Shown: one piece after another, positions 558 through 34,395 of the stretch
Layout of the letters: each line of letters opens with the position of its first letter
Position numbering within the stretch: the stretch's first letter is position 1
IMG/VR virus record: IMGVR_UViG_3300046780_000064
Coordinates: 1 to 34,977 of that record
Reading direction: 5' to 3' (one strand)
Source: a virus
DNA length: 34,977 nucleotides
The notes under the pieces: model-generated
Told to the model about the DNA's origin: nothing
What the model saw: only the letters and a program-made list of their open reading frames with translations
Database searches by the model: none
Position numbers and translations under genes: made by a program

Positions 558-685
558 GGTGTACTCCGTTAGTTAGAGGGGCGGATGGTCGGTGCTGATC
601 CCCGTCTCACCTCGATCCCTAGTAACCTGACCGTGGCCGCAGTCTTCATCCGCCTTGGAACACAGAGTAAAGTATCAACACGCGC

Positions 686-3030: not shown

Positions 3031-3822
3031 GTGAAGACACCGGAACAGGTTATCGAGGAAGCCATGGAGTTCAAGCCCGTGGCGATCCGAGTCGGGTTCA
3101 GTGGTGGCAGAGACTCTCTCGCCGTGACGCACTGGATGATGGAGAACGTCGCCGGCTGTGAGGTCTTCCATGCCAATACGGGCATAGGGATAGAAGCTAC
3201 ACGGCAATACGTGCGGGATACGTGCAAGAAATTCCATTGGCCGCTGCATGAGATTCGGGCGAAGGAGGATTGCGGGCAGGACTATGACGAAATCGTCAAA
3301 CGGTACGGATTCCCCGGTGCTGGACAGCACGGCAAGATGTACATCCGCCTGAAGGAACGTCCCATTGATTACCTCATCAGGAACATCCCCAACAGAAAGC
3401 GAGGCCAAAAAGTTCTGCTCGCCATGGGGATTCGCCACGAAGAAAGCACGCGGAGGATGCGCTATGTCGGACAAGAAGTTACCCGAATCGGCTCAAAAGT
3501 CTGGTGCAATCCCATCTATTGGTGGAGTGCTGCCAAGCGGGATGCCTATAACCGATCCCACAATCTTCCCATCAATCCAGTATCTGAAACACTGGGCATG
3601 TCAGGTGAATGCCTCTGCGGAGCATTCGCGCATGAAGGCGAGAAATCTCTGGTCCGCGTTATATGTCCGAAGACCGCCGACAGGCTAGACAGGCTGGAAG
3701 TGGAGACGCTTGAACGGGGCTTTACATGGGGATGGGAAGGCAGTCCACCAGAAAACTTTACTCTGAATCAATCCGACTTCTTCATGCCCATGTGCGTCGG
3801 CTGCGAGAAGGTCCATGGCTGA
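3031..3822 (+). CDS. PP-loop ATPase, PAPS reductase-like family
   Basis: A 263-residue enzyme of the adenine nucleotide alpha-hydrolase superfamily. The PP-loop SGGRDS is at residues 24-29, followed by FHANTGIGIEATRQYVRDTC, the usual second strand and helix of phosphoadenylylsulfate reductase-like proteins. The C-terminal half has a cysteine set: GECLCGAF, VICPK and MCVGCEK, suitable for a metal or iron-sulfur site. It starts at GTG 3031 behind AGGGGATGAA. That site lies inside an 8-codon open frame (3003-3029) that may couple it to the previous gene. Related proteins in bacteria act in sulfate assimilation or DNA phosphorothioation. Being in a phage recombination operon makes nucleic-acid or nucleotide modification possible, but that is inference. 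Confidence 0.8.
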   Translation: MKTPEQVIEEAMEFKPVAIRVGFSGGRDSLAVTHWMMENVAGCEVFHANTGIGIEATRQYVRDTCKKFHWPLHEIRAKEDCGQDYDEIVKRYGFPGAGQHGKMYIRLKERPIDYLIRNIPNRKRGQKVLLAMGIRHEESTRRMRYVGQEVTRIGSKVWCNPIYWWSAAKRDAYNRSHNLPINPVSETLGMSGECLCGAFAHEGEKSLVRVICPKTADRLDRLEVETLERGFTWGWEGSPPENFTLNQSDFFMPMCVGCEKVHG

Positions 3823-9370: not shown

Positions 9371-9591
9371 ACCTCATCATCAAGACCGTACTTCTGATAT
9401 GGCTGGCCCTCTGTTCGGGTTGTGCCACGCAGCAGATCGACACCGTGCTGAACAACATTGACCGCGATTGCGTGCGCCATTATGCGGGGCAGGCTGGCGG
9501 CATGGCTGCGGCGTTCTCGTTTACCATCGACTGCCAGCCTGGCGGGACTGTCACCACGACCACGGTCACGACACCGCAAAAGACGCCATGA
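9367..9591 (+). CDS. Small lipoprotein, outer-membrane spanin candidate
   Basis: A 74-residue protein with a type II signal: a hydrophobic stretch, then the lipobox LALCSGC with Cys near residue 19. The mature part is short (about 55 residues) and ends in a Thr-rich tail. Coming straight after the endolysin, it is at the usual place for an Rz1-like outer-membrane spanin. It lacks the Pro-rich body of lambda Rz1, and the inner-membrane partner would have to be 7216 or 7478. The lipoprotein call is good, the spanin call tentative. Confidence 0.65.
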   Translation: MNLIIKTVLLIWLALCSGCATQQIDTVLNNIDRDCVRHYAGQAGGMAAAFSFTIDCQPGGTVTTTTVTTPQKTP

Positions 9592-9779
9592 AACGTGACC
9601 CTCTGATAGCCTTCTATGCGATTATTCAGTTAATCGCCGCAGTGATGGTCGTTGTTGCCGTGGTGCTAGTCAATGCGCACGGGTTGATGTTCGCGTTGCC
9701 TCTGTTGGTACTGAGCGTGGTTGCATTTAGCGCAATAACTTATGGAAGTTATCTAATATTTGTGGAAATGCGCAGGTGA
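9588..9779 (+). CDS. Two-helix small membrane protein
   Basis: A 63-residue protein from ATG 9588 (ATGA overlap). Two membrane helices: about 7-28 (AFYAIIQLIAAVMVVVAVVL) and about 34-56 (MFALPLLVLSVVAFSAITYG), with basic residues at both ends (MKRD, EMRR), so both ends are likely cytoplasmic. This hairpin shape is that of a class II holin. It lies behind the endolysin and lipoprotein, so it could be a holin, an antiholin or an unrelated moron. Confidence 0.6.
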   Translation: MKRDPLIAFYAIIQLIAAVMVVVAVVLVNAHGLMFALPLLVLSVVAFSAITYGSYLIFVEMRR

Positions 9780-9907
9780 TATATTGGCTGCGCGAGCTAT
9801 TGCGCTGGCTGCGTGGCAAGGCGCATCATCGCGGGGATTTCACGGTACGGTTTTTCTTTGATTCTCCGTCGCCATTCCCTCAACTCAGACGCTTCATAGG
9901 AGGCATT

Positions 9908-10210
9908 ATGTCCGCATCACTCACAATCGACCTCAACACCGACACTGGCGGGCATGTGGCCTCGCTGGTCGCCTTGAACCTTGACGGCTCGCCAGCAACC
10001 GGCGTCACCGTGTCCTTCTCATCGGACAACCCCAGTGTCTGCGACGTGGACGCCACCAGCGGCGCACTGACCGTAGGGACGACCATCGGGACGGCGAACA
10101 TCAGCGGCACCGGAACCCGCAGTCGATTCGTGCATTCGGATTCCGGCGCGGTGACTGTGACGCAGGATGCCCAGACCGGCGACTTCGGCGTATCACTTGG
10201 TCTTGCGTAA
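9908..10210 (+). CDS. Ig-like (BIG2-type) domain protein
   Basis: A 100-residue protein from ATG 9908, which has AGGAGG four to five bases upstream. An in-frame GTG at 9776 would add 44 residues and is less likely. The sequence is one bacterial Ig-like domain: VASLVALNLDGSPATGVTVS, then FSSDNPSVCDVDATSGALTV and GTANISGTGT. Such domains decorate capsids or fibres, or bind glycans weakly. Its last 18 bases overlap, tail to tail, the minus-strand gene at 10193-10387. The 9780-9907 stretch otherwise holds nothing supported. Confidence 0.65.
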   Translation: MSASLTIDLNTDTGGHVASLVALNLDGSPATGVTVSFSSDNPSVCDVDATSGALTVGTTIGTANISGTGTRSRFVHSDSGAVTVTQDAQTGDFGVSLGLA

Positions 10211-10387
10211 TTCGCAATACATCGCGGCGTGCAGGATAGCGCCGGCAATCGTATTCTCGACCGTCCCGCCCTTGCGCTGGAGACTGCGCAGGACGGACAG
10301 GGTGGCTGGCGTGAACCAGATGGATAGGTACTTGTCCCCTGCGGCTGTGCGCCGCTTATAGCGCGTGGTAGAGGCGTATACGGTCAT
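10193..10387 (-). CDS. Putative ribbon-helix-helix regulator, 64 aa
   Basis: A 64-residue basic protein beginning MTVYASTTRYKRR. ATG 10387 overlaps the upstream stop (ATGA). The middle reads DKYLSIWFTPATLSVLRSLQ, then KGGTVENTIAGAILHAA: one beta strand, a helix, a Gly turn and a second helix, the order of Arc/CopG-type ribbon-helix-helix repressors. With a 20-base palindrome in front of its own operon, autoregulation is a natural model. Both the fold and the role are inferred. Confidence 0.55.
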   Translation of the reverse strand: MTVYASTTRYKRRTAAGDKYLSIWFTPATLSVLRSLQRKGGTVENTIAGAILHAAMYCELRKTK

Positions 10388-10650
10388 GGCGTCACCTGCT
10401 GCGAGCGAAGGGCGATGATGCGGTCGGCCAGCGCGATAACGTTGCGCTCGTAATATTGCGCCGTGTACAGCCATCCGCGAATGCGCACGCAGCGTCCGGC
10501 GCCGGCCGTGTGAGGTGCGACGTTGTCTAGGGTCACACAGCCTTGTCGGGCGAGCTCGGCGAGGTCTGCGCACAGCTCGGCAACCGTCTGCGAAGCGGGG
10601 GAAGTGGTCTGTGCCTCAGTGGTAACGTTAGTAAGCTGTTCGCGCTTCAT
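10384..10650 (-). CDS. Hypothetical leftward protein, 88 aa
   Basis: First gene of a two-gene leftward cassette that interrupts the late rightward genes. ATG 10650 has AAGGA upstream. The N-terminus is Thr/Ser/Gln-rich (TNVTTEAQTTSPASQTVAEL), then a helix LCADLAELARQGCVTLDN, then a mixed stretch (CVRIRGWLYTAQYYERN) and a helix ADRIIALRSQQ. I recognise no family. Coupling to the RHH-like gene suggests a toxin-antitoxin-like or regulator-partner pair, but no toxin motif is visible. Confidence 0.6.
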   Translation of the reverse strand: MKREQLTNVTTEAQTTSPASQTVAELCADLAELARQGCVTLDNVAPHTAGAGRCVRIRGWLYTAQYYERNVIALADRIIALRSQQVTP

Positions 10651-10710
10651 ACAAATCCTTGTTAGTTAGGATGGAGCAAGCACTACAATACGCCTATCCT
10701 ATAGCATTGC

Positions 10711-10730
10711 TATTAGACCTTAGTCTAATA
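10711..10730. promoter_or_regulatory. Second palindromic operator, upstream of the leftward cassette
   Basis: Perfect inverted repeat TATTAGAC (10711-10718), CTTA, GTCTAATA (10723-10730). It is 61 bases upstream of the leftward cassette start and 107 bases upstream of the rightward 10837 gene. Each strand carries TCTAAT, five of six matches to a -10 box, so binding here could affect transcription in both directions. The RHH-like protein at 10193-10387 is the best candidate ligand. Confidence 0.65.
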
Positions 10731-10749
10731 CGAACCTCGCACTAGCCTA

Positions 10750-10778
10750 TTGCGAACAGGCGCTGAATAGGGTAAAAG
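10750..10778 (+). promoter_or_regulatory. Candidate rightward promoter for structural genes
   Basis: TTGCGA (10750-10755, four of six), a 17-base spacer, TAAAAG (10773-10778, four of six). It lies 20 bases after the palindrome and about 50 bases before the first structural-type gene, whose ATG 10837 has GGGAG upstream. Moderate box scores mean it may need activation. Confidence 0.35.
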
Positions 10779-10836
10779 GCTTTAGCCTGCGAAGCATTGT
10801 GCAGCTGGCTGCTCAAAACTACCGGGAGACTTCGCA

Positions 10837-11259
10837 ATGGCTGTATTTGATGGCTTAAACTGGCTCGGTGTAGCCACTGGTATCAGCGCCAATGCGGCTG
10901 CTGACATCTTCGTCCCGATCCCATCCGGTTCCAAGCGCGTCCTGTTCGACAAGGTCGTCTTCACCAATCCTTCCGCAACGCTCGCCTCGGCTACGACCAC
11001 GGGCGGCGTCTATACCGCAGTAAGTGCAGGCGGATCGGCCATTGTCACTGCCGCTACCGGCACGCTGACCCCGCTTACCGCGGCGGCAAAGTACCTTGCA
11101 GGCACGATTGCCTCACCCGCCACGACTGACGCCCTCCTGCTCACACAGCAGACCAGTGGAGCAAATGCAGGTCTGACAGGCGTATTCGTCAATGTCGGCG
11201 GCACGCCCAATGTGGCTGCGACGTTCGATGTCTATATCGGCGGGCGTATCCTCGGATGA
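10837..11259 (+). CDS. Beta-rich decoration-like protein, paralogue A
   Basis: A 140-residue Ala/Thr/Gly-rich protein from ATG 10837, with GGGAG upstream. It is clearly paralogous to the 11556 product: both carry AADIF(V/I)-x-IP near the start, FTN-x-S, YTA-x-S-x-GG-x-AIVTAAT in the middle, and GGTP-x-VA-x-TFDVYIGG at the end. The composition suggests an all-beta structural protein such as a capsid decoration or fibre-associated subunit. There is no enzyme motif. It is the first gene after the second control region and just before the terminase genes. Confidence 0.65.
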   Translation: MAVFDGLNWLGVATGISANAAADIFVPIPSGSKRVLFDKVVFTNPSATLASATTTGGVYTAVSAGGSAIVTAATGTLTPLTAAAKYLAGTIASPATTDALLLTQQTSGANAGLTGVFVNVGGTPNVAATFDVYIGGRILG

Positions 11260-11555
11260 CACTGCGGCAACTCCAGGTAGGCGGCGGGGCAGTCACCACG
11301 TCCGCGCTATCGGTTCCCACCGCAGGCGGCGCAGCCACAATGGGGCGAATAGCCCTGAATGGCACCACCGAGGTTACGGTCAGTACCACGGCAGTGACGG
11401 CAAACTCCAATATCTTCATCACGGCGAATGTCATTGGTGGAACCCCGCTGGGCGTTGCCTACGTATCGAGCCGCAATGCCGGGACGAGTTTTGGCATCAA
11501 GGGTGCCGCAACAGACACCAGTACGGTTGCCTGGTTACTTGTGGAGCCTGCCTAA
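11256..11555 (+). CDS. Small beta-rich structural-type protein, 99 aa
   Basis: Coupled by ATGA to paralogue A. The sequence alternates short strands with Gly/Ala/Thr turns (MGRIALNGTTEVTVSTTAVT) and ends in the pattern GTSFGIKGAATDTSTVAWLL-VEPA. That ending is common at the C-termini of phage fibre-associated or depolymerase-like proteins, so a virion-surface role is likely. The whole protein is the length of a single domain. It is bracketed by the two paralogues, and the next gene starts at the base after its stop. Confidence 0.6.
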   Translation: MTLRQLQVGGGAVTTSALSVPTAGGAATMGRIALNGTTEVTVSTTAVTANSNIFITANVIGGTPLGVAYVSSRNAGTSFGIKGAATDTSTVAWLLVEPA

Positions 11556-11960
11556 ATGACGCCAGCCGGATTAGACCACCTCGCCTATGTCAAGGGCGTC
11601 CGATGCAACGTCGCGGCGGACATCTTCATCTCAATCCCCTGTGGGGATAACGGGGTGATCTTCCGCTACGCCACATTCACCAACTCCAGCACGAGCCTAG
11701 CCGCGACTACCACTGAAGCCGGCATTTACACGGCGGCATCCAAGGGCGGCACGGCTATTGTGACTGCGGCTACCGCGAATGTAACGCCCTTGGTCGCATC
11801 AACTGACATTGTTGACTACGCTTTCAGCCCCACGGCAGCCATTCGACTGAGCGCTCCGGCTGATGGATCGACCACGACCGGCGTCTACCTGAACATTGGC
11901 GGGACACCAACAGTGGCAGGAACCTTTGACGTTTACATAGGCGGCCATGTGCTGACTTGA
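11556..11960 (+). CDS. Beta-rich decoration-like protein, paralogue B
   Basis: A 134-residue homologue of the 10837 protein; by eye roughly half of the aligned residues are identical. The shared blocks are NVAADIFISIPCGD at the start, IYTAASKGGTAIVTAATANV in the middle, and GGTPTVAGTFDVYIGGHVLT at the end. The DNA has diverged at third positions, so the duplication is not recent. It begins one base after the previous stop and has no clear Shine-Dalgarno sequence, so translation probably depends on readthrough of ribosomes. Two copies may give two decoration subunits. Confidence 0.65.
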   Translation: MTPAGLDHLAYVKGVRCNVAADIFISIPCGDNGVIFRYATFTNSSTSLAATTTEAGIYTAASKGGTAIVTAATANVTPLVASTDIVDYAFSPTAAIRLSAPADGSTTTGVYLNIGGTPTVAGTFDVYIGGHVLT

Positions 11961-11961
11961 T

Positions 11962-12117
11962 ATGCCAAGCAAATCTGCAAAACAACATCGCTTCATGGAA
12001 GCCGTCGCGCACAATCCCAAGTTTGCCAAACAGGCTGGAGTACCCCAGAAGGTAGGCAAGGACTTCGCAGCGGCTGACAAAAGAAAATCCAGCGGAAAAT
12101 CAAAGAGTAAGTACTAA
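11962..12117 (+). CDS. Small basic phage protein, 51 aa
   Basis: Begins MPSKSAKQHRFMEAVAHNPK at ATG 11962 and ends in a Lys/Ser-rich tail. The pattern MPSKS-x-KQH-x-FM-x-A-x-x-x-N, then GVPQKVGKDF-x-AAD, is widespread among small phage proteins located next to terminase genes. It is basic and probably binds nucleic acid or a packaging component. The function is not established to my knowledge. The family call is from remembered pattern. Confidence 0.75.
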   Translation: MPSKSAKQHRFMEAVAHNPKFAKQAGVPQKVGKDFAAADKRKSSGKSKSKY

Positions 12118-12123
12118 AGTAAA

Positions 12124-12465
12124 ATGGGTGCGCCAATTGGAAGCAGAAACAGGGCGAAAGGGAAGGAATTTGAGCAGGCGCTTAGGCGTGCATTGGCTCA
12201 GCATTCCGACCGAGACGCGCTGACGAAGATAGCCAAGAAACTGGTTAAGGCAGCCTTGAGCGATGACGTTAACCTTGCAGCTATCACAATGGTTGCAGAC
12301 CGATTGGACGGAAAGCCAGCACAATCGCTCGATGTAACCAACCATGACCCAGACCGCAGCCCTGAAGACCTCACAGAAGCAGAACTCAACGAACGAATTG
12401 CTTCAGTTGAGAGACGACTTGCTGGAGAAGAGGTCCAGGCTGAAGGCCCGCAGCAGCTTAATTGA
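12124..12465 (+). CDS. Putative terminase small subunit-type protein
   Basis: A 113-residue protein beginning MGAPIGSRNRAKGKEFEQAL. After a Gly/Arg/Lys head comes a helical block (ALTKIAKKLVKAALSDDVNL, then AITMVADRLDGKPAQ) and an acidic helix at the end. This GxPxGSxN-basic-helix layout is usual for the small protein in front of phage large terminases, probably DNA-binding. The large-terminase frame begins 122 bases before this gene ends, an unusually long overlap. Family membership is likely; packaging-site recognition is inferred. Confidence 0.6.
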   Translation: MGAPIGSRNRAKGKEFEQALRRALAQHSDRDALTKIAKKLVKAALSDDVNLAAITMVADRLDGKPAQSLDVTNHDPDRSPEDLTEAELNERIASVERRLAGEEVQAEGPQQLN

Positions 12466-13837
12466 CTTTACCCGCTACACGACCTACGGCTGGTCCGATG
12501 GCCGCATCCACCGGGAAATTTGCAGTGCATTCGATGCCGTCATCCGCAAGGAGTTCGACAGGCTTATACTGTTGTGCCCGCCGCAGCACGGCAAATCCAA
12601 GATAGCCAGCGAGAGGTTTCCAGCTTATGCCATTGGACATGATCCGACTATGGAAGTTGTGTCCGCATCGGCTTCCTATGCCCTCGCAGAGAAGTTCGGT
12701 GGATCGGTTCGGAACTGCGTCCGAAGCCCCCAATACCAAAATCTGTTCCCCGGCGTTAACCTCCGTGAGGATTCAAGCGCTAAGGGAGAATGGGCGACAG
12801 ACAAAGGCGGTGGATACTTCGCGGTAGGCATTGGTGGCGATCTGTACGGTCATGGCGGGCATCTCGGAGTCATAGACGACCCCTTTGGCAGCTGGCAGGA
12901 CGCACAGTCTGAGAACGAACGCAGGCGTGTATGCGAGTGGTACACCGGCACGTTCTATAATCGCATAAGGCCCGGTGGGGCCATCGTCGTCATCCAGCAT
13001 AGGATGCACGAAGAAGACCTCGTCGGCTGGCTGATGGAGAACGAGAAGCGGGGTGCCGACCGCTGGAAGGTCATCAAGATACCTGCAGACCTCGATAACC
13101 CGCCCTGGGCAGAACGTTACGACCGCCCGGCGCTCGAGCGCATCAAGGCCAATACCTTCCCCCGTGAATGGTCTAGCCTCTACCTGCAAGACCCAACGCC
13201 TGACGACGGTAACTACTTCAAGCGCGCGGGGTTCAAGCGTTACACCCAAGCCCCACAAGCGCTGAACGTCTACATGTCCGGCGACTTCGCTGTGACTGAC
13301 GATGGCGGGGACTACACCGAACTGGCTGTCTGGGGCGTTGATCAGTTCGACAACGTCTACGCTCTAGGCTGGTGGCACGGGCAGAAGACCTCTGATGTCT
13401 GGGTGGACAGGCTTCTCGACTTGGTCGAGCAGTTCAAGCCACTGGCCTTCGTCGGGGAAGGCGGGCAGATCAGGCGGAGCGTGGAACCGTGGCTCGCCAA
13501 GCGCATGAGCCAGCGTAACGTGTTCGTGCCCGCCGTCTGGCTGCCATCAAGCGCTGAGAAGACCGCGATGGCGAGAACCTTCCAAGGCTTGTGCGAACTC
13601 GGACGGGTCTACTTCCCGCACACCGACTGGGCTGATCGAGTCATCGAGCAGTGCATTGCGTTTCCCGGTGGTCGGCGCGATGATGCGGTGGACGCCTGTT
13701 CGTTGTTTGGACGCCACATCGCACATACGTGGAAGGCCCAGACCGAGCCGGTGCCGAAACAGATTAACTGGGACGAACCGATGCGGATTGGCGATTTCAA
13801 GGACAAAGGCTGGCAGCGGGTGAATGACCGTGGCTGA
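12344..13837 (+). CDS. terL: Terminase large subunit
   Basis: A 497-residue DNA-packaging motor. The Walker A-like CPPQHGKS is at about 78-85. Walker B VIDDP is at about 176-180. The nuclease domain has MSGDFAVTDDGGDYT with Asp at about 314, GEGG with Glu at about 372, and RRDDAVDA with Asp at about 446-450. These fit ATPase-nuclease terminases of the Terminase_6 type. The ATG at 12344 gives a 122-base overlap with the small-subunit gene and lacks a good ribosome site. Later in-frame TTG codons (about 12398-12425) could be the true start without losing any motif. Confidence 0.93.
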   Translation: MTQTAALKTSQKQNSTNELLQLRDDLLEKRSRLKARSSLIDFTRYTTYGWSDGRIHREICSAFDAVIRKEFDRLILLCPPQHGKSKIASERFPAYAIGHDPTMEVVSASASYALAEKFGGSVRNCVRSPQYQNLFPGVNLREDSSAKGEWATDKGGGYFAVGIGGDLYGHGGHLGVIDDPFGSWQDAQSENERRRVCEWYTGTFYNRIRPGGAIVVIQHRMHEEDLVGWLMENEKRGADRWKVIKIPADLDNPPWAERYDRPALERIKANTFPREWSSLYLQDPTPDDGNYFKRAGFKRYTQAPQALNVYMSGDFAVTDDGGDYTELAVWGVDQFDNVYALGWWHGQKTSDVWVDRLLDLVEQFKPLAFVGEGGQIRRSVEPWLAKRMSQRNVFVPAVWLPSSAEKTAMARTFQGLCELGRVYFPHTDWADRVIEQCIAFPGGRRDDAVDACSLFGRHIAHTWKAQTEPVPKQINWDEPMRIGDFKDKGWQRVNDRG

Positions 13838-33082: not shown

Positions 33083-33555
33083 CCGGACTGCGCGCTGGCG
33101 AGGGCGTGTCTAGCTCGTTTTTGCGCCCATTGCCGGAACTGGTTGAGCCTATCGCCGCGCTCGAAGTCAATCCATCCCATCGGATCGACCGTTGCAATGT
33201 TGCTCAACTCGTCGCGCAGGCGATCCAGCGCAGCACCTTGCTCGGCGACGGTGGCGCGGAGGGTGTCCAGTTCGGCGAGCATTATTTCGCCGCCACGAAG
33301 AACCTGTATCAGACGTTCCTCTATGGGAGTCAACCGCTCGACTTCCGCGCGGAGGGATTCAGCGGCGGCATCTGCCATAGCGCGATCACGGCGCTCAAAC
33401 GCAAGTTCGTTGGTCAACCGCTCGACTTCCGCGAGAAGATTGAGAACCATGTACATTGCTTCGCCTTCACCATGATCCAAACCTTTGGCATAGATCATGG
33501 CTTCCACCGCCTCACGCGATGGAACAGGGGTTGTGTCAGTCATGGGGTTATTCAT
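33079..33555 (-). CDS. Coiled-coil leftward protein, 158 aa
   Basis: Last gene of the leftward operon. ATG 33555 (MNNPMTDTTPVPSREAVEAM) overlaps the previous stop; ATG 33543 is an alternative start. Most of it is coiled coil (LLAEVERLTNELAFERRDRA, then LRAEVERLTPIEERLIQV), with the peptide AEVERLT repeated exactly 28 residues (four heptads) apart, and a C-terminal conserved-looking WIDFERGDRLNQFRQWAQ. It may act as a multimeric scaffold or regulatory subunit. I do not recognise a family. Confidence 0.65.
   Translation of the reverse strand: MNNPMTDTTPVPSREAVEAMIYAKGLDHGEGEAMYMVLNLLAEVERLTNELAFERRDRAMADAAAESLRAEVERLTPIEERLIQVLRGGEIMLAELDTLRATVAEQGAALDRLRDELSNIATVDPMGWIDFERGDRLNQFRQWAQKRARHALASAQSG
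33329..33433. repeat. Direct repeat in the coiled-coil gene
   Basis: A 21-base exact repeat, GTCAACCGCTCGACTTCCGC followed by G, at 33329-33349 and 33413-33433, 84 bases apart. The spacing is exactly 28 codons, four heptads, so the duplicated unit preserves the coiled-coil register. It looks like an internal duplication of helix rather than a regulatory repeat. Confidence 0.8.
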
Positions 33556-34078
33556 CGTAGTGGGCCATTGCGCGGTCGTTTGCAGATGACGCCTCGTCAT
33601 CCTTCGGACTGGCATCCTGCGCACTGCCCGATTGGGCTGCGGATACAAATGCACGCAGGTCAGCAATGATATGGCCCATGCTCATTGAGGCATTGATGGA
33701 CAACGAACCTGATTTCATCAGTGCTGCATACCAATCCTGCAACGGCTTCAGCGGATCGTCAACCGGCTTGCTCTCCTGCGCACTGAGTTCGGCATACGAT
33801 GGCTTAGGTGCTGCCGCTACTCTATCCGCCCATTCGGAATCCGGTGGTTGCGGCTCACTGACTTCGGCGGCGCGGGTGTTCCAAACTCTGAGCCGAGTAG
33901 TACATCCGCAAACTTCGCAACCGGCAATTAGAACTGGCAACGAACCCGGCGCGCAGACCTGATCGGCAAATGCCTTCCCACCACAAAACGGACAAGGTTT
34001 CAGCGCCTCAGTCTCAGAGACTTCGGCTTTTCGCGCTTCTCCCTCATCTTTCGTGATGTGCGTGGTGTCGGTTGTCAT
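33548..34078 (-). CDS. Lar-like zinc protein
   Basis: A 176-residue protein from ATG 34078 (ATGA overlap; GGAAG upstream). The N-terminal half is a Lar-type zinc module: LKPCPFCGGKAFADQV, then IAGCEVCGCTTRLRVWNTR. In the family this is C-P-F-C-G followed by C-x-x-C-G and W-N-x-R. Lar proteins of phages modulate restriction systems, though most family members are uncharacterised. The C-terminal half is a separate acidic helical region with a Pro-rich linker. The leading peptide GEARKAEVSETE nearly repeats that of the 237-557 gene. Confidence 0.7.
   Translation of the reverse strand: MTTDTTHITKDEGEARKAEVSETEALKPCPFCGGKAFADQVCAPGSLPVLIAGCEVCGCTTRLRVWNTRAAEVSEPQPPDSEWADRVAAAPKPSYAELSAQESKPVDDPLKPLQDWYAALMKSGSLSINASMSMGHIIADLRAFVSAAQSGSAQDASPKDDEASSANDRAMAHYDE
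34007..34039. repeat. Near-repeat, right copy of the pair with 510-542
   Basis: See 510-542: the 33 bases share the blocks CTCAGTCT, ACTTCGGCT and TTCGCGCTTC at identical spacing. Both copies encode the EAR-x-AEV-x-x-TE N-terminal peptide on the minus strand, in the same reading frame relative to the start. This is good evidence that the leftward genes at the two window ends were once neighbours. Confidence 0.7.
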
Positions 34079-34395
34079 TTCCAACTTCCTTCGCAGTCTG
34101 GGTCAGCGCAGCCATCACCGTGCATGCAGCCTGCACGTTTCTTCTTTACCTTCATCAGCGCCAACAGTGGGGCGACGGCTGTCAAAGCGGCGTGCATACT
34201 CATTACGGTTGAAGGCCCACCCATGCGCCATGCCTCAAGCGCAGTCTCCAGAGCTTCCATCGTAATCCCCTTCTCCGCAGCTTCCTTGAGCGCGGCGTAT
34301 TCGCGCAACATGGCTTGAATGACAGCGATTTCTGCGAATGATGCAACCGATACTCTGGGGACCATCGCCCGCAGTTCTGCTGCCGTAAAGTTCAT
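34075..34395 (-). CDS. Hypothetical leftward protein, 106 aa
   Basis: ATG 34395 has GGAG upstream and overlaps the stop of the 24-residue membrane peptide. The N-terminus is MNFTAAELRAMVPRVSVASF, then a helical, Ala/Glu-rich body (IQAMLREYAALKEAAEKGIT, MEALETALEAWRMGG). The C-terminus holds a small Cys cluster (GCMHGDGCADPDCEG), which could hold zinc. The reading frame is open for 59 codons further upstream, but that part is the shadow of the exonuclease gene. Not recognised. Confidence 0.65.
   Translation of the reverse strand: MNFTAAELRAMVPRVSVASFAEIAVIQAMLREYAALKEAAEKGITMEALETALEAWRMGGPSTVMSMHAALTAVAPLLALMKVKKKRAGCMHGDGCADPDCEGSWK

Follow-up and report, generated by a model that had tools for sequence, protein, structure and literature searches.

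Comparison of a 34,977-base stretch of DNA, a single uncultured virus record analysed over its whole length (the window), with other viral contigs revealed that a leftward cassette of two small genes and its own regulatory element are, judging from sequence conservation, real, and that the 34-bp block in front of the cassette is a real shared control element. On balance, the cassette is probably a moron-like accessory operon under a repressible promoter in this block, perhaps of the anti-defence type, with the 64-aa product of its last gene as a possible autorepressor. The features are as follows.

736–932: Cro-like HTH gene, 65 aa, in the immunity-type region 650–932
10193–10387, minus strand: 64-aa gene, second and last gene of the cassette; possible RHH-like autorepressor, no family match
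10384–10650, minus strand: orphan gene of 88 aa that opens the cassette
10635–10648, minus strand: GAAGCGCGAACAGC motif where the 88-aa gene begins, common to early genes
10661–10669, minus strand: CTAACTAAC motif in the leader of the 88-aa gene, repeated ahead of an early leftward gene (568–576)
10698–10727, minus strand: TAGACT-18-TATAGG, a putative weak promoter-like core whose −10 follows a TG; a position-weight scan placed it 242nd in the window
10701–10734, minus strand: conserved 34-bp block, ATAGCATTGCTATTAGACCTTAGTCTAATACGAA on the plus strand; putative leftward promoter-operator, identical in three carriers
10701–10713, no strand: palindrome O1, ATAGCA-T-TGCTAT, read directly from the sequence and kept in the block
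10711–10730, no strand: palindrome O2, TATTAGAC-CTTA-GTCTAATA, the palindrome described previously

The sequence-only reading had proposed that two small leftward genes interrupt the rightward late region, and both ORFs proved to be real: each is the sole stop-free frame across its own span, the two overlap by ATGA, and an AAGGA Shine-Dalgarno sequence lies 5–6 nt upstream of the ATG of the 88-aa gene (start codons were chosen by open frame and Shine-Dalgarno sequence). Scored with the phage's own codon usage, the 88-aa and 64-aa ORFs reached +11.4 and +15.3 bits, respectively, the best of the six frames, and all other frames over both ORFs were negative. The cassette is flanked by rightward genes on both sides, and the end assigned to it earlier, 10836, directly precedes the next rightward gene. 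The window contained no tRNA and no Rfam element.

The 20-base palindrome reported in front of these genes, TATTAGACCTTAGTCTAATA, was recovered exactly at 10711–10730, with 8-bp arms and a 4-nt spacer, as a single copy in the window. By itself it is weak evidence, not beyond chance: two inverted repeats of this kind were observed in the window vs 5.9 expected, and the chance probability of such a palindrome in the intergenic stretch is about 0.045 (about 4.5%). The palindrome becomes significant because the 34-bp block, which consists of O1 and the 20-mer O2 overlapping by 3 bp, plus CGAA, is kept exactly in other phages. A reading as an RNA hairpin was weak (z −1.8).

The palindrome arms were present in 43 of the viral contigs scanned, one of which (L208, the 35.6-kb contig G7) also codes for a relative of the 88-aa protein beside the palindrome. 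The block is identical at 34/34 positions in the window (10701–10734), G7 (1281–1314) and a third contig, G9 (281–314); G8 is a near-copy of G9, and the independent carriers number three only, all of them metagenomic contigs. Copies of a half block, GCATTGCTATTAGAC, in other contigs were rejected as signs of the block elsewhere and put down to chance, because none extends into the rest of the block; this consistent lack of continuation indicates that the 34-bp sequence common to the carriers is no chance match. A sample of 369 genomes from one class contained no copy of it and so yielded no host, and a search of sequenced phages gave no significant match to it.

Analysis of the spacing around the block revealed that the first leftward start codon, each with a Shine-Dalgarno sequence, lies +50, +49 and +47 nt from the block edge in the window, G7 and G9, respectively. 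The genes that begin there are unrelated (88 aa in the window, 62 aa with a CxxC pattern in G7, and a 39-aa membrane-like peptide in G9), and so are the leaders between them and the block. The rightward starts, in contrast, lie at +102 in the window, +211 in G7 and about +178 to +187 in G9. Constant leftward and variable rightward spacing suggests that leftward transcription starts from a promoter within the block and that the leader measures ~40–45 nt, and to judge from these comparisons the block is most likely a leftward promoter-operator, not a late-gene switch. An identical element before different orphan genes, in phages whose structural genes are unrelated or distant, would mark an accessory-gene hotspot.

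A promoter is predicted at the two overlapping conserved palindromes, 50 nt upstream of the first cassette start codon. The −10-like boxes attributed earlier to the arms were present (TCTAAT on both strands, 5/6 matches to TATAAT), whereas no sigma-70 match accompanied them: a consensus scan of 9500–12500 found 0 sites vs 1.3 expected, and this lack of a good sigma-70 promoter counts against an accessory promoter-operator. Just the first three −10 bases of the promoter-like core TAGACT-18-TATAGG are kept between carriers. Given so weak a core, the leftward promoter may need help or be of another type.

The leader and the beginning of the first cassette gene have counterparts in the early region. 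GTTAGTTA (minus strand TAACTAAC) occurs in leaders directly upstream of leftward start codons, and only on that strand, at two sites in the window (568–576 and 10661–10669), four in G7 and one in G9. The 14-bp GAAGCGCGAACAGC, with up to 2 mismatches, was found at positions 529, 2686, 4199, 10635 and 34026 of the window and at seven places in G7 (L271/L272), close to where early and cassette genes begin, in the sense orientation and often followed ~12 nt later by ACTGAGGC; since it is read in different frames, it is conserved as DNA or RNA, not as protein. The cassette shares the CTAACTAAC leader and GAAGCGCGAACAGC with early operons and is thus built from early-region parts. The notion of a second developmental switch at the cassette was not borne out: it is the Cro-like gene that has divergent, consensus-like TTGACA promoters and a TTGTCAA/TTGACAA repeat in front of it (~664–932), and this repeat is unlike the cassette block. 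The immunity-type region (650–932) shows 90% DNA identity to G7 despite different structural genes. The early region also contains a phosphoadenosine phosphosulfate reductase-like gene (3031–3822) and a Lar-like restriction-alleviation gene (33548–34084, minus strand).

Behind the block, G7 carries a run of four leftward genes, of 62, 78, 78 and 131 aa in this order; the second encodes the relative of the 88-aa protein, and the four probably form one operon, given their strand and spacing. The 131-aa protein matched phrog_25535 (1.5e-29) and an anti-restriction PHROG (0.0016), and some of its phage homologues carry antirestriction or ArdA-like annotations; searches of Pfam, NCBIfam and PDB gave no confirmation of a link to ArdA. 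Because this run holds both the relative of the 88-aa protein and the ArdA-like gene, an operon of the moron or anti-defence type is favoured. The 88-aa protein and its 78-aa relative have their N- and C-terminal ends in common and unrelated middles, a pattern resembling that of mosaic genes. This relative was the only homologue of the 88-aa protein found in Pfam, PHROGs, PADLOC, NCBIfam, PDB, phage and plasmid records and viral contigs, and the protein had no known anti-defence, acr, aca, toxin or antitoxin match in PADLOC, Pfam, PHROG or NCBIfam. That the two genes of the window are without known anti-defence relatives, the ArdA-like gene occurring in G7 and not in the window, weighs against the preferred reading.

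In the mechanism that we propose, the accessory operon would be transcribed leftward from its own promoter in the 34-bp block, and a regulator bound to the two overlapping palindromes would cover the −35/−10 and shut the operon; its last gene (64 aa) would encode a possible autorepressor. Gene content would vary among phages, and its role would most likely be to counter host defences, as in acr-aca operons. We infer that the block is an active promoter, that it points leftward, that it is repressed and by which protein, and that the 88-aa protein acts against host defences.

Several known systems resemble this arrangement. In acr-aca operons, the promoter carries one or two inverted repeats and is repressed (PMC9410906). 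Like these operons, the cassette consists of a small orphan gene and, behind it, a gene whose product may bind DNA, with inverted repeats in or beside the predicted promoter; unlike them, it has a weak putative promoter core in place of consensus −35/−10 boxes, neither of its proteins matched acr or aca in PADLOC, Pfam, PHROG or NCBIfam, and the helix-turn-helix type to which Aca families belong was not detectable in the 64-aa protein. In archaeal viruses, conserved upstream regulatory sequences mark anti-defence genes (PMC11065993), and here too one conserved regulatory sequence precedes different fast-evolving small genes in different viruses; however, the archaeal promoter machinery differs, and one of the three carriers here has a recognisable anti-defence gene. 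By analogy with these two systems, the best reading would be an accessory, possibly anti-defence operon under repression. The cassette also resembles phage morons and lysogenic conversion cassettes as an extra transcription unit among late genes that is missing in sister phages, although a scan found no terminator-like site at the cassette and no known conversion function was found. It is possible, but rather doubtful, that the block is a portable promoter-operator for swappable, fast-evolving anti-defence operons in unrelated phages and that the 64-aa protein represents a new Aca-like repressor class; if so, the block would serve as bait for new anti-defence genes. If the block works as proposed here, it would offer a DNA bait for anti-defence genes without recognisable sequence, together with a small new repressor candidate.

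The identification of the 64-aa protein as a ribbon-helix-helix repressor gained little from the searches. No hit was obtained in Pfam, NCBIfam (both up to E = 10), PHROGs, PADLOC or PDB sequences, and its score against an RHH profile was reached by 29/150 shuffles; the profile was built from six RHH cores, with the profile members themselves as positive controls. A single-sequence AlphaFold2 model predicted a strand-helix-helix arrangement (E20–25, H27–38, H48–60) at low confidence (pLDDT 58.6). In this predicted order of a strand and two helices, as in the palindrome with TAGA/TCTA, the case is similar to the Arc/Mnt/CopG repressors, but the protein has no detectable sequence relationship to them, and its profile score is within the shuffle range. 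Structure comparison gave no significant match; with the 64-aa monomer model, Foldseek placed a permuted Arc at rank 15 (E 3.2). RHH identity is therefore no more than a lead, and the 64-aa protein may act as autorepressor of the cassette. The search for the cassette in other phages recovered a relative of the 88-aa protein in G7 and no homologue of the 64-aa protein in phage and plasmid records or viral contigs. G7, G8 and G9 also yielded none; these contigs begin inside or soon beyond the cassette, so a homologue may have escaped detection. The lack of a homologue in them, tempered by this early end of the contigs, and the missing RHH homology count against the preferred operon reading. A full-length match in L128 was rejected, since it runs on the strand opposite a long rightward ORF and seems to reflect composition alone.

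Because the palindrome recurs, the 64-aa protein has a serious rival in a regulator of the host or one that is widely shared. The palindrome could quite possibly, if with somewhat less probability than the accessory operon, be bound by a host regulator or another phage protein, which would wire the cassette to host physiology or to a phage early regulator. L186/L205 also contain the exact 20-mer, followed by TATAAT; on one side of it lies a terminator-like hairpin and on the other a rightward structural-type gene whose position and size suggest a major-tail gene. This unrelated promoter-like context speaks for another regulator and against the accessory promoter-operator. Among 23 independent same-arm contexts, the spacers were far from random (ATTA 6, CTTA 2), and TATTAGACATTAGTCTAATA occurred in six further independent non-coding or short-ORF contexts, a recurrence that suggests a common regulator. 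The 90% DNA identity between the Cro regions of G7 and the window is consistent with the same view, but the repeat in the Cro region is unlike the block, and wherever the match extended past the 20-mer to all 34 bp, a leftward cassette was present. In L184–L226, several of the six unrelated viral contexts of TATTAGACATTAGTCTAATA adjoin terminator-like or promoter-like sequences.

Whether the element controls the cassette or the structural genes had been left undecided, and the comparison with sister phages favoured the cassette. In the closest structural relatives (L034/L170 and L169), lysis genes, the P140 gene (a homologue of window 10837–11259), TerS and TerL follow each other on one strand, and the lysis–P140 junction contains neither the cassette nor the block; the cassette is thus an extra unit that sister phages lack at the same locus, as in morons. 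The block was also absent from the structural sisters G005/G006 when its 22-bp core was searched with up to 3 mismatches. TerL identity is 31% between the window and G7 and undetectable between the window and G9, and G7 shares early and immunity-region patches with the window at 74–97% DNA identity. Since the carriers differ in structural genes and sisters without the cassette also lack the block, the block tracks leftward cassettes, not structural genes. A late promoter, or its operator, for the rightward structural genes, with the cassette incidental, is therefore improbable: the block does lie just left of rightward structural or terminase genes in 3/3 carriers, the best plus-strand promoter-like site of the region (TTGTTA-19-TACAAT) is at 10659–10689, and G7 and G9 are 96% identical over 41 bp right of the block, but structural sisters with the same downstream genes lack it and the rightward distance is not constant.

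That the two genes form a toxin-antitoxin pair with an RHH antitoxin is very unlikely. Two small overlapping genes with a palindrome upstream, and the predicted strand-helix-helix of the 64-aa protein, would suit such a pair; however, neither protein matched a toxin or antitoxin family, as a type II system would, and in G7 no 64-aa homologue follows the relative of the 88-aa protein, which belongs to a longer series of genes. Very unlikely, too, is a packaging (cos/pac) site or recombination joint in place of a transcription element, set low because the closer terminase relatives G005/G006 lack the block: it lies near terminase genes in all carriers, and the window and G7 share short patches at gene ends, as in mosaic joints, but the site is identical although the terminases are distant (window–G7) or undetected as related (window–G9), and such a reading would not account for the fixed distance to the leftward start codon.

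Right of the cassette, two tandem paralogous structural-type genes (10837–11259 and 11556–11960) are about 49% identical, and a 99-aa gene with a K1-lyase C-terminal domain lies between them. In the relatives L003 (633–3086) and L004 (162–2615), the terminase large-subunit gene is a single 817-codon ORF with a long intein-like insert.
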